Shown: positions 5,901 to 44,188 of the stretch, in pieces
How positions within the stretch are numbered: the stretch's first letter is position 1
How the letters are laid out: each line of letters opens with the position of its first letter
DNA from: Seison nebaliae
Taxonomy: Eukaryota; Rotifera; Pararotatoria; Seisonacea; Seisonidae
Direction: 5' to 3'
Assembly: GCA_023231475.1 (NCBI GenBank)
Contig: JALJEE010003034.1
Coordinates: forward strand, 29,622-93,621
DNA length: 64,000 nucleotides
Translations under genes and position numbers: made by a program
Notes under the pieces: model-generated
Database searches by the model: none
The model's input: only the letters and a program-made list of their open reading frames with translations
Told to the model about the DNA's origin: nothing

Positions 5901-8900
5901 TGCCAGATTATCTTATCGAAGTTTATTAGAGTTACAAGCGGCAATCAAAGGACATTTAGTGCGAAAATATTATGGAAAAGAATTGAAACATTTAAAAAAA
6001 TTAGAGGAATTAGAGTATAAGAAAGAAAACGATTTTGAGTTGAACAGATCGTCGATGGAGGAAAGCGAAGCATTAAGCAAAGCCGAAAAGTCTTTTTATA
6101 AAGGTGTCAAAGTTATCGATAAAGATCTGGAAGAATGGCAAATGGAAAATAAGAAAAAAACAGAGAAAGTTCAATTGTTGTTAGAATTGTTAAGCAGGAA
6201 ACAAGATGGAGATAAAACGGTCAATAAAGAATTAAGTGAAATTTTTGGATTTTTGCAAAACACTCAAAATGACGACGAAGACAACGATGAGGAGGAAGAA
6301 GAAGAAATTGAAGAAATTGAAGAAATTAAACAATTCACTGCCGATGTTTCTGATCATTTATTTAAGAAGTTTGCCAAAACCCATTTTGGAAAAGACGTAA
6401 CATCGTCATACGAAAGAAGAATGATAAATAACTCACTTCTCAATTTGCAAGCGATGTGTGACAAAATTGGCGCTTTGGCCACTTGGATTAACATTTTAAG
6501 GTTCATGGGTGACATTTCTGATGTGGCAGAAGACACTCAGAAACTTAATGATGATCCGGCACCAATTATTACTCGAATTTATAGTACAATAGGAAGGAAG
6601 TTGAATGAAAAACATTTGATCGAAGCACAAAAATATATGGGGAAAATATCAACAGAGAAACCGAATAGACGTGCCACCAAACAAATAAATGCAACCGCTC
6701 AAGGTGATAATAAGAAAGTTCGTCAAGGAAATCCATTCATTCAAGAACGTGTAATGACGAATTTGGAGAAAGTTCATTTTATCACTTCGATGGGTATTTT
6801 GAGACCGGAATTGAGAGATGAGATCTATTGTCAAATTTGTAAACAATTAACTAAAAATCCTGATAAACGATCATTCGCTCGGGGTTGGGTGTTATTGACC
6901 ATGTGTATATGTTGTTTCATTCCAACTGATCGATTTATTCTTTATTTGAGAAAATTCATAATGGACGGTCCTGTTGGATATCGGTCATTCTGTGAAGATC
7001 TTCTCAAACGAACATTCAAAAATGGTACAAGAGATCAACCATCGTCATATATTGAATTACATGCCGTTTGTACCAAAGAACCAATTATTCTTCCAATTCA
7101 ATTTGTAAATGGTCATTCAAAAACTTTGTACGCTGATTCTGCAAGTTCCGCTAAAGAAATATGTACTGCTCTGTGTGATAAAATAGGATTAGTTGATCGC
7201 TTTGGTTTTGCACTTTACATCAGCATGGATGGAAGCAAATATTCCATTGGTAATGGTTGCAATCATGTCATGGATATAATCTCGAAAGCGGAACAAGCCA
7301 CCAAAGAAAAGGGTTCAGGTGAAGCTACAGCGGCGTGGAATATTTTATTTAGAAAAGAGATATTCAAACCATGGCATAGTGCATCGGACGATCCAATTTC
7401 AACGAATTTAATTTATGAACAAGTTTTCATTTGAATTAAAAATTAAAAAATTATTTTAAAAAAGATCGTTCGTGGTGTTAAATATGGAGAATACTCGTTT
7501 GATAGTGACCAAGAATTCGCTAAGATGGCCGCACAACAACTTTACATTGACATTGGAAGTGGTTACTAAAATTCTGATTATTAAAATAGAATAAAATTTT
7601 AATTTACATTTTCATTTCATAATTTAGAGTTTGATTCGAAGAGATTATTAGAAATCTTACCAGAATTAATACCAAATAAAGCCAGTAAAACTTCCGTGAG
7701 AGACTTGAGTAAGTGGAAAACATTAATCACGGATGAATTCAAAAAAGGAGATTTTGTTTTAAACGATGTTGGCATTGATCGAACAAAAGAAGATATTGTT
7801 AACTTTGCCAAATTTAAATGGCCATTATTATTCTCCAGATTTGAGGATGCACATCAGTTAAATTTAAATATCTCTTCGATCAATTCAACCCTTTAATTCT
7901 TCAACAGAATTTCCGGCCCTAAACTATTAAAAAAACAAGTGAAACTTGCAATAAATTGGACGGGAATTTATTTCATTGACGATCGAGAACAGGTGCTTAA
8001 AGAGATTCCTTACGCAGAAATAACTGGAATCTCATCTTCCGAGTTTGATGCCTTTTCATAATTTAAAAAATTTGATATTTCTTTTATATAGATCGACAAG
8101 GTTCAATTACAATTTCATATTTCATGTATTGTGAATGAAGGAAATTTTTATTATTATTAGAATTAATCGAATCTTTACACAAAACTTGAGCATCTTTACC
8201 GTTTCTGGTGATCAATATGTCTTCGAAATTTATTATGCAAATGAATTACGAGAATTAATTGTGATGTTTCTCGAAGGATTGCGTGAAAGATCCAGATATC
8301 TCATAGCAATTAAAGATTCTGATTCTTCAGATGGTTTTCAATTTCCTTCGCAATTCTCCAAATATAAATGTCGTTTTAGTTGAAGATATTCCTAATCCTC
8401 CTAAAGATCTTTTAAATTTCCGTAGGGGAGATCTTATTATAATGCAAATAGATAACGATGGTGAATTGAAATTGAAAAAAAATTCATGGACCAAAGGAGA
8501 ACACGAGAGAACTAAAGAAACCGGTTTGAAATATATTTGATGATATTCCTCACTTTTTCCATTTAGGCAATTTTCATAGTTCCGCTTTCTATCGCGTTCC
8601 AACAATGATGAAACCGGCACCTGAAATCTTAAAACAATTTGCAATACAATCCATGTCTCAAACGGACACTAAAAATGGGAAACGAAATAATGATTATGAA
8701 ATTAATGAAGAGGATTTACGAGAGCCATATACATTAGAAAATTTCAGTTATGAATATTTCAGGTTAATAGTTTTATTGTAAATGTGGAATTGATTCAATA
8801 AATTTATTGGTTTTGGACCATAGACCACCAGTGAAAACGACATCATTTGGTAGGAGACATGTTGAGAAATTGTCGATGCATCAAAGAGATCCATTAAGGA

Positions 8901-38578: not shown

Positions 38579-41500
38579 CTATATTGTTACTCTGAAAACG
38601 CCACGAACATGTCCGTAAGAACCAGCTGGTGTGTTACTCGATTCCTTCCCAATAATCGTATCCGTAGAGTAGAAGACTTCATATTTATCATTCATATATC
38701 TTAAGGAGAAGTATTGGCGAGTTGCCAATGGATATCGTGCATCATTCAAGTGTACGACACATATATTAATCGACTGGACTTTATTCAAATCAGGCAGATC
38801 GAGATGTTTCGCTAGAGACAATACGTCATAGATTTCCTGCTGAAACCCTCCCAATTGATAACAAATATTCAATCCAATTTGAACGACACATGAGAAGATG
38901 CCACTTGTCGCTGCATCCGTCGAGAACTTCTCCAATTTCTTATAAGTTAAATCAGGTATCACCAAAACTTTTTTCGTCGGACTGATAACCATATATCCAC
39001 TGGAAAGTATTTTTGGTTCTTTCGAACCATCATAAATAAACTGTCTGTGTTGATTTCCATAGAATACGAAATTATGTAAATGTAGTCCTGCATCAAACCA
39101 ATTATTGACAGTTTTCAAATATTTAAAAATCACTAACCGTTCTTCGAATTGATTAATACATCTTCCGGTCCAGCATCTTTATCCGAACATGCAAACGCCA
39201 ATTGAATATACATATATTTCTGAAGACCTTTGCATAAGTCGAAAGGTATTTCCAATTTAGCGAAGTCGGCTAAAATTGGAACGATGGGAAGTCCAGCTCT
39301 ATTGAAATCGTTCTTAATTTATAGACCACAATATAAAAGAAAGAATAACATTGCTTGTAATTCATTACGGATGTCAATTGAGCATGCTTGTGGGGGAATA
39401 GTATTGATATCTTCCATCTTCTGAGTGATTTGCGCTTTCGTCAAATAAGTTCGGAAAACAGCATTCACTATTTGAACTGTGCCACCTATTAAGATATTAA
39501 GAAAATTTCAGAATAAATTGATGACGATCATTAAGAGGAAACCTTCACAATAAATAACTTCTGTTTCACCATAAGCTATATTCCGTCGATGTAATTCAGC
39601 AAGTTTCGATATTCCAATTTTGTATGTTTTACACATCTCGTAAAATTTAGTCAATTTATCTTTAACAACTTCCAGTTTTTTCGCTTCATACGAGATGTGC
39701 GAACCTAAATAATCGACATCTGTTCATAATTTATAGAAAGTTTATTAAAATGATAATTTTCATTAACATGGAGTTACTGCCGTATTCGGAGTCAGTGTAC
39801 TAGTATCTGTACTTGTAACCTTTCCCAAAATATGGAGAACTTGATCTGAAAACGATTGAAGCAAATAATTGGAAAGGTTTATCATTTAACAAAAAAAACC
39901 GTAAAATTCCCCAGTTGTTTGTGCCAATTTTTTCGCTAATTTGTCATGTTCTGTAACCGAAGTTTTTAATACTAAAATCATTCAATTTAAATAACTTTTT
40001 TGCAGATCGAAAATTTTTACTCGTTTGTTCAAAATGCTTTTAAAGAAATCTTCGCTATTTCCATCAGGACCGATAAATTTAAACATTGTGTCATTGATTT
40101 GTTTGATGGTGTCTTCTAATTCTATCAGATTCGACGAAAAATATTAGTTCATATTGAGATTTAATATATTATGAAACTTTTCCGAATTGTTTCCAGTTGA
40201 CTATTCTGTTTATTCACATTGTTATCTAATGGACCTATGAGTTTTGCTATTCGAAACATATTCGAATGATTTGAGATCAATAATAATTATATTAACTGTA
40301 ATAGGTAATATTGTTTTGAGTATATGTTAATTGAATATTGTATATTTGGATTTCTAACAATATTTTCAATCAGAACATAGGGAAAAATTATTGAAACTTT
40401 CTTTCGCATCTAATATCAGGTCTTGAAGGCTTTTAGTTGTTTCGCATGTGGTGGAAAGATCAGATCCTACAGTTTAAAGAATTTTATTAAACAAATTCTT
40501 GAAAAATTAAGTTTGAACCAATTCCACTTTTTTGTAAACTCAAAAGTTTTCTTTCTCGTTTCTTGGTACGTAAAGCTGAAATTAAAAATATTTTAGAATT
40601 TCCATGAATTAAGGAATCAAACTTCGATCTAATTCAGGAATATTGTCTTCTAATTTCTTCATTGCTGTAATAATTGAATTCGTTGTATTATCTATAAGGA
40701 AGATGAATAAGTATATTTAAGAAAGATTATCACAATATTAACAGATAAGTAAATTCTTTGCTTTAAATAGTTCCAACGCAATCTTTTGCTTCAACAAATC
40801 TATTTGAATTATTGAATTGAACAAATATTAATACAACGAGTGATAAATTAATGGATGAAACCTTTTACTATGTCTTTAAATTGTTCGTCTATTTTCTGCC
40901 TGACAACAATTTGACCTCGAACTTTTGAAAAGTTTATGAGAAACAAACTGTTCTTCAACAACTAACTGAGATCGCTTTGATTTAATAGTAGTGAATTATA
41001 CGCATCAGTCATAGCTGGAATTGACAGATATGATTAGAACGATAATAAAAAAATGTTTTTGATTTTCAGTAAGATAACCTCCATACAAATTATTCGAATC
41101 AGCAATCGATTTCTGTGTTAATTGTTCCACTTCGTTTGATCGTTCTGTCCAATCAACTGGAATAAAAATTTAGTTTGACTATCATTAATTAAACAAAAAA
41201 AATTTTAACTTGGATCAACTGATCCATCTTTCAGTGCTCGAAATTCATTTTTTCTTTTTTCAACCTCTAAAATTGGATCATTTCTTTACACAATAAAATT
41301 TGGAAATCGAACCTGAAGTCAAATGTGCTACGTACATAAATGATTGAGCAATTTTATTATTAATTTGACTATTCTGTTCCACTAACGTAATGAAAATAGT
41401 CTAATGATATCAAGAAACGAATTGAAATTAACATATTTTAAATATGCTGTTCTTACCAAAGTTGAGTTGAGGAACAACGGCCGCATTTGTTACAACTTGA

Positions 41501-42254
41501 TCGAGAGTTTTGTATTTCTCTGATAATGTTTGATATTCCGTCTGTTTAGCAGTATTTTCTTGATCTTTTTGTAGCCGTGGATGATATAGTTTTACTAGAT
41601 TCTATCTAACCTAATGTTGTCAACATTTCATCATCAGTTTTATATTGTTGATCTTAAAGAAATCGAACAAGCTTTGTAGAACTTATCGAGATTAAAAGAA
41701 ACTTAAAGAATTGTATACAGTTTCCACGTCGATTTTATCCTTGATCAAACTATTCATTGCTAAAAGTATTAACGAAAATTAATATTAAAATCTAATGAAA
41801 ATTTAAACTTTTTTCCAAATAATTTATATCACTAGACGCATTCCCCGTAAGTTCGTCCTTATCTAAGAATATAAGAAGATTAATATCTCTCTTGCACAAA
41901 AAAAGAAGAAAAGAATATTAACAAAGACTTTGATATTGCATCTTCAACATTTTCAATTCATTTTCTAGAGATAAAACTTCTGAAATTATGGAATATTACT
42001 ATGATTGAAGAAAATTTTAAATAAATAAATATACCATTATTCAATGTGGGTAATTGCCTGGCATGTCTTTTTACTTCGTTTGGTAATGTCTCATATTTCA
42101 CTTTAATGAGAAAGATTACAGTTTAATTTCATTGACAATATTAACTCGAGTAAAATATCTTATCCAAACTGAGAAGGTCATCGGGTAGCGACCAATATTT
42201 ATTGAAATTGATAATTAGTATAAGGAAACAAAATAGAAGATTTAATGTCCTCAT
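38579..42254 (-). CDS. Secreted 24-exon micro-exon gene, family unknown
   Basis: Not recognised. 24 exons give about 774 residues: 42254-42146, 42100-42035, 41979-41929, 41862-41809, 41759-41703, 41652-41611, 41564-41457, 41381-41313, 41266-41210, 41156-41079, 41014-40967, 40921-40862, 40799-40743, 40691-40623, 40575-40519, 40466-40377, 40246-40178, 40121-40071, 39971-39900, 39845-39768, 39719-39543, 39485-39350, 39298-39138, 39087-38579. A clear signal peptide opens it (LLFCFLILIINF). Exons 2-20 encode 14-36 residues each, mostly helical and polar with few Cys; the last exon is a 169-residue possible globular domain. Exons 2-21 are all multiples of three, and every intron is phase 1 except the one after exon 22 (phase 2). 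The donor of exon 18 is the weakest choice. The likely product is an extracellular coiled-coil protein with splice variants. Confidence 0.72.
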
Positions 42255-43078: not shown

Positions 43079-44188
43079 CTAATAATCGTATAGAGTGTTG
43101 CCGTTTAAGAATTTTGAGAGCGCGGTATAATCATTCTGTTCGAGCATAATCCTGGCATCGGAGAGATGTGGACGAAACTTTGATGGAAGAAAACTAGATG
43201 AAGAAAAGTTAAGAATAAAATTTTGGAACTCAGAGGAAGTTGGTGAAAACGGTAGATCATAATAATGTGGAACATGTCCTAGAATCGACCGATCAGTTTT
43301 GAGCATCTCTACGATTAACAAATCCATTCCTTGAAACGACGGATTCGTCGAAACTCCATCCAAGATTCTTAAGATCTGAAAAGGAACCAGATCAGTGAGG
43401 GAAAAGAGAAACGCTCTATTGCAACGACGAAAACAACCGATCAAACAGCGTACAGCCCTGGAGAAGGATCTGTCCATCGCTAAGAAAGAGTTCGAAGAAG
43501 CCACGAAGATGGAATCCAATCCGAATAGTGGCTGAACTAAAATGGTGAAAGGATATTCTTACGTTAGTTCTTAAGGGAAAGAATTTGACACGATTAAGAA
43601 GGGAGAAATAAGTTCGACAAAACGATGATCGAATATTATCGAGAGAACTAGAAGAGAGCTTCCAAGAATCAAGATGGCCACCAAGGAAACGGGTAGATGA
43701 AGACAATTTGATTGGGGAATCGGTGATTCGATTACCTGCCGTGGAAATTGTAACATTCTTCGACGGATTTACAGCAATGTGTAGATTCTTCAATGCTAAT
43801 ATGGTGAATGTTGATAGATCCAACAAAATTCGATTAGATGTGGAGAACAGCACAATATTGTCGGCATATGCATATGCTGCTGGAACTCGCAAGGAATTAA
43901 CTTGAATAGAAGAACGAGAATTGATGAGATCGGTCCAAGAATCGAGCCTTGACGGACTCCACGGTTGACTTCAAAAGATGAGGACTGTAGATTTTAAACC
44001 GAAACAGAACAGTATGACCGTGAACACAACGGTCTTATGAACGACAATATCGAATGATGAACCCCACGAGATCGTAGAGTATGGAGGGCAGGAAGCACAT
44101 CGATGGAGTCGAATGCCCTTGATGAATATGAAGAGGACGGTTCGTTGTTCTGTGATAATAGATCAAAGATCTTAAAATAGCTATACAT
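43079..44188 (-). mobile_element. Decayed non-LTR retrotransposon, reverse transcriptase part
   Basis: Three overlapping minus-strand frames together give the core of a non-LTR reverse transcriptase, in order. At 44188-43994 is an AFDSIDVLPALHTLRSRGV block. At about 43955-43900 is RGVRQGSILGP, the hallmark motif. At 43892-43416 is the catalytic loop AYADNIVLFS followed by NPSKN and RFLGGHL. A thumb-like C-terminal frame runs from 43519 to 43079. The frames are separated by a stop codon and frameshifts. The catalytic YADD is YADN. The 5' part and any endonuclease are missing. It is a dead 5'-truncated copy; the clade cannot be named safely. Confidence 0.75.

Follow-up and report, generated by a model that had tools for sequence, protein, structure and literature searches.

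A Gene Family with Long Phase-1 Exon Arrays Encoding Predicted Stalk Proteins in Seison nebaliae

In the micro-exon genes (MEGs) of schistosomes, symmetric exons of 6-36 bp make up about 80% of the coding region, according to the part of the source consulted (PMC5825161). For rotifers, the consulted part of a survey of secretory lectins in six species, which did not include Seison, gives for monogononts only short SUEL lectins that lack accessory domains, and for bdelloids no secreted SUEL lectins (PMC8878817). Here we describe gene A of Seison nebaliae, which is located on the minus strand at 42254-38579 of a window of 64,000 nucleotides (GenBank assembly GCA_023231475.1, contig JALJEE010003034.1, positions 29,622 to 93,621 of the forward strand). 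Seison is an epizoic relative of the rotifers, living on marine crustaceans. The assembly comprises 36.03 Mb and the window runs to the end of its 93,621-bp contig (C747); the Seison genome paper, in the part consulted, reports a haploid genome of about 46 Mb with compact genes and names a published set of S. nebaliae RNA reads, ENA PRJEB43415 (PMC8351084). From its letters alone, gene A had been proposed to be a MEG-like locus (the original prediction); a literature search on MEGs gave no Seison paper among the matches listed (titles and abstract starts). We found that gene A is one of at least four related genes, which in our judgement probably encode secreted rod proteins made of a signal peptide, a coiled-coil stalk, a SUEL-type domain of divergent sequence and a C-terminal region without known fold, with constitutive splicing and with a uniform intron phase that goes back to an old array of 126-nt units.

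Exon architecture of gene A

When spliced into 25 exons, gene A gives the public predicted protein SNEBB_000812 letter for letter (814 residues). Gene structures were modelled with a simple splice-aware gene finder, which was trained on the 64-kb window at first and on 185 kb afterwards. When start and stop were fixed, the 25-exon form was returned at the second of four intron penalties with two acceptors displaced by 6 and 12 nt, and shifting both furnished the exact match; the remaining penalties gave 20 exons (strictest) or 26 and 27 exons (the two laxest). The unforced first run, in which the start was not fixed, missed the first exons and found 16, while the unforced run after retraining put intron 7 in phase 0 and so left 22 of the 24 introns in phase 1. 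The phase-1 version of this intron is favoured because the matching exons of paralogue B, described below, measure 129 and 69 bp.

The near-uniform phase 1 that had been predicted for the introns is indeed present, with 23 of 24 in this phase. The predicted twenty symmetric exons, nineteen of them of 42-108 bp, proved to be symmetric, but their number and sizes needed correction: exons 2-22, hence 21 exons, are all of the 1-1 type and range from 42 to 177 bp, with 18 of the 21 within 42-108 bp. The proposed signal peptide corresponds to an N-terminus that is strongly hydrophobic in the public model and can be called signal-like. None of the 24 introns could be retained in frame.

Among 259 introns of other predicted genes in the 185 kb, which amount to about 0.5% of the genome, phases 0, 1 and 2 occur 98, 101 and 60 times and the longest phase-1 run is 6, counted without the four family-bearing predictions (24, 27, 33 and 32 introns), three of which (on contigs C307, C803 and C629) also included fused upstream sequence, so that some non-family introns were dropped as well. 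At this background rate, a phase-1 run of 22 has a probability of about 1e-9. The donor and acceptor scores of gene A are comparable to the scores in other genes (p 0.21 and 0.26). We conclude that the exon architecture of gene A is real and non-random.

Paralogues and the SUEL-like domain

The original prediction had suggested looking for paralogues of like phase pattern, and these do exist. The Seison genome was searched with a 615-residue incomplete model of A and then with each relative; the counts are lower bounds. This gave B on C307, C on C803 and D on C629, each with a long run of small phase-1 exons and a related C-terminal part. No fifth family gene was detected in the iterated searches of this genome. 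Protein searches with gene A at E values up to 10 matched SNEBB_000812 alone; these same searches missed even the Seison paralogues. The models of B, C and D were made in this analysis, with starts picked for a signal-like peptide.

A and B are 33% identical, and 23 of the 24 introns of A are found at the same alignment column and in the same phase in B. Five introns distinguish the two genes. Only A has the one between exons 4 and 5, where B has a single 111-bp exon; four are present only in B, namely inside A's exon 1, in exon 19 (cut 57+69 by a phase-1 intron), in exon 24 (110+51 bp) and near the 3' end of B, the first and the last of these as placed by our own model of B. Across A exons 2-22, 18 of 20 comparable blocks have the same length, two blocks having been merged across intron differences, and identity within the 18 equal-length blocks ranges from 6 to 58%. 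C and D have 16 of 23 introns in common. Between A/B and C/D, 4 to 7 introns are common versus 0.45 to 0.49 by random shifts, in an alignment at about 21% identity that is itself uncertain. In paralogue D a 48-nt intron (L039:4769-4816, minus strand) was placed by hand; it is stop-free and in frame, and the gene finder had treated it as coding, within an exon of 243 bp. It could be a retained intron.

The terminal domain had been described as having no family match. This holds for the last exon, exon 25, for which no Pfam match was obtained, but not for the part just before it, which is a divergent SUEL-fold domain, nor for the protein as a whole, which has the family relatives described above. 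The fold was computed for paralogue C, whose domain does adopt the SUEL fold, and the sequence signal for SUEL in the family domain is weak. SUEL_Lectin domains over the cut-off were also seen at 15 places in the Seison genome (C691:50312-54301, C241, C540, C738, C670 and C307:91154); a single open frame of 2,689 residues on C691 accounts for seven of these.

Heptad stalk, 126-nt units and splicing

The four genes together contain 23 exons of 57 nt and 19 exons of 69 nt. Adjacent exons total 126 nt at 7 of 19 places in A, 9 of 20 in B, 7 of 18 in C and 6 of 18 in D, which is more often than under shuffled order (p 0.004, 0.0002, 0.006 and 0.025, respectively). A length of 126 nt corresponds to 42 residues and hence to six heptads. 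The four genes contain 14 units of 69+57 nt, many of which are paralogous to one another and thus not independent. Within these units, the third and the sixth of every seven residues are hydrophobic 76% and 61% of the time, versus 10-20% elsewhere, which gives the 3/4 spacing of a coiled-coil core (permutation test, p 0.0002, 0 of 5,000). The best register falls at a common offset in 12 of the 14 units, while the other two are best at a different offset, one of them tied. Introns are therefore at fixed heptad positions in these units. Exons 2-21 encode the stalk of about 450 residues, of which at least a part is a heptad coiled coil.

The individual exons of gene A, all on the minus strand, are arranged as follows. 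Exon 1 (42146-42254, 109 bp) encodes the signal-like hydrophobic N-terminus. It is followed by the 1-1 exons 2 (42035-42100, 66 bp), 3 (41923-41979, 57 bp), 4 (41809-41862, 54 bp), 5 (41703-41759, 57 bp), 6 (41611-41652, 42 bp) and 7 (41433-41564, 132 bp), and then by exons 8 (41313-41381, 69 bp) and 9 (41210-41266, 57 bp), which form the first and the second half of a 42-residue unit. The array continues with exons 10 (41079-41156, 78 bp), 11 (40967-41014, 48 bp), 12 (40862-40921, 60 bp), 13 (40743-40799, 57 bp), 14 (40623-40691, 69 bp), 15 (40519-40575, 57 bp), 16 (40398-40466, 69 bp), 17 (40297-40353, 57 bp), 18 (40178-40246, 69 bp), 19 (39996-40121, 126 bp), 20 (39900-39950, 51 bp) and 21 (39768-39845, 78 bp). 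Exon 22 (39543-39719, 177 bp) contains the stalk end and the start of the SUEL-like domain, which extends through exon 23 (39350-39485, 136 bp) and finishes in exon 24 (39138-39298, 161 bp). Exon 25 (38579-39087, 509 bp) encodes the C-terminal region.

These exons bear directly on the idea that the locus is MEG-like, with frame-neutral exons skipped in many combinations to give variable secreted proteins. A hydrophobic N-terminus followed by 21 symmetric phase-1 exons in a row, any of which can be skipped in frame, is what such a gene would offer. However, none of the gene A exons is 36 bp or shorter, exon order and lengths are mostly kept in the 33%-identity paralogue B, and the splice sites are ordinary. 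Additionally, of the 79 exons tested across the four genes, only 8 span a whole number of seven-residue heptads, so that most single-exon skips would keep the frame but shift the heptads, an argument that assumes the whole stalk to be a coiled coil, beyond the 69+57 units tested. A variant-generating system of this kind is thus unsupported, and we regard it as very improbable.

A different form of skipping would respect the register. Neighbouring exon pairs (69+57 or 78+48 nt, 42 residues) might be skipped together, so that exact two-exon cassettes of 126 nt, in or out, would give a secreted lectin-fold stalk tunable in length, with graded stalks and a constant head, independently of the schistosome MEGs. 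The frequent 126-nt neighbour sums in all four genes would fit, and dropping a pair keeps both frame and heptads, but there is no sign of weak splice sites. We consider this improbable too, if marginally less so than the MEG-like idea.

Regarding the origin of the array only, the uniform phase could have arisen without a common source, if a coiled-coil gene that already existed acquired introns preferentially at phase 1 and retained them. The units show no residual similarity to one another beyond the heptad and A and B differ at five introns, both in line with insertion; yet phase 1 accounts for just 39% of the other introns, and the alternating 57/69 lengths are not expected from insertion. 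Such an origin appears unlikely, although less so than either form of skipping.

We return to the secreted rod protein with constitutive splicing, the reading that we prefer and that starts from the computed gene structure, the family, the register in the 69+57 units and the domain fold in a paralogue. The product of gene A would be a rod in which the signal peptide is followed by the stalk, the SUEL-type domain and the C-terminal region. Chains would oligomerise via the coiled coil, and the oligomer may carry several lectin-fold heads, with extracellular glycans or proteins as their ligands. The exons would be spliced constitutively, and their uniform phase would derive from an old array of 126-nt units cut 69/57 by phase-1 introns, with exon lengths since constrained by the requirement that the heptads stay in register. 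Duplication of such a unit is suggested by lengths and phase alone, because units show no excess of in-register similarity.

Several observations weigh against this rod protein. The heptad test covered the 69+57 units alone, three of which lie in A and make up 126 of its residues, and units within a gene are in register no more alike than when shifted by whole heptads. The N-termini of B, C and D lend no independent support to secretion, their starts having been chosen for a signal-like peptide. The Pfam SUEL model (PF02140) gives 19.8 bits for C and 15.8 bits for D, both below the curated cut-off of 31.4, and no match in A and B. YGR is the usual motif of SUEL domains, and YGR or YGK occurs in all four canonical Seison SUEL domains read, but the YGR motif is absent from all four family copies, which makes sugar binding by the family domain doubtful. 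Finally, AlphaFold gives no usable model of the focal protein (mean pLDDT 35.0).

The striking all-phase-1 exon array can be explained by protein register and common descent rather than by selection for alternative splicing, and the gene family makes it possible to distinguish between these two explanations. The lectin-fold stalk protein family was found here in Seison alone, and adhesion or host contact is worth testing as its role.

Genomic surroundings and known systems

Of the neighbouring genes in the window, the calcium-sensor gene is a 100% match to SNEBB_000805 of Seison nebaliae. Upstream of gene A, an open frame at 43416-43970 (minus strand) has a weak reverse-transcriptase match below the cut-off (E 0.044) and is perhaps a retroelement remnant. 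A calpain-like gene is found at 37055-33741 (minus strand), with a domain III match (E 1.7e-15), a weak peptidase part below the cut-off and, in our own gene model, a long glycine- and histidine-rich N-terminal extension.

Of the 375 introns predicted in the window and at 13 further loci, 357 start with GTT rather than GTA or GTG, as do 26 of 27 introns of the two genes identical to public protein models. Four U1 small nuclear RNA (snRNA) genes lie over the Rfam cut-off (loci L043, L044, L045 and L046). Three of these have A for the usual U at nucleotide 6 of the 5' end (ACUAACCUG or ACUAACUUG). Because this A pairs with T at intron position +3, it looks as if U1 and the 5' splice sites have co-changed in the Seison lineage, judging from sequence. 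The fourth U1 gene is canonical and shares its contig with one variant, and it might serve the few GTA introns. The two lie about 1.5 kb apart on opposite strands (C208:6576-6739 and 8280-8439). The single U6 match keeps ACAGAGA. No rotifer description of GTT introns with a U1 change was found among the literature matches listed (titles and abstract starts); in the tunicate F. borealis, which has non-canonical splicing, two U1 versions with identical 5' ends are reported in the part of the source consulted (PMC13326754).

Among known systems, troponin T genes likewise combine a one-phase exon class with heptad-repeat exons, but there, in the part of the source consulted, the one-phase exons are the alternatively spliced ones (PMC2447309). 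With the secreted coiled-coil lectins (C-type, C1q, fibrinogen-related), as the consulted part of the rotifer survey presents them, gene A would share the signal peptide, the coiled-coil region and a lectin-type head (PMC8878817). The head domain of gene A is a different one, its stalk is longer and it has an array of small phase-1 exons; the likeness noted here is one of architecture. Troponin T, for its part, is an intracellular muscle protein. The SUEL or rhamnose-binding lectins and the latrophilin lectin domains share with the family the fold, as computed in paralogue C, and a weak sequence signal; the family domain differs in scoring below the Pfam cut-off, in lacking the usual YGR motif and in sitting on a long stalk. 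With the schistosome MEGs, finally, gene A has in common a run of symmetric exons and, if its product is indeed exported, secretion, whereas its exons measure 42-177 bp compared to 6-36 bp in the part of the MEG source consulted (PMC5825161). Moreover, the exons of gene A are mostly conserved in length between paralogues and encode a heptad stalk.
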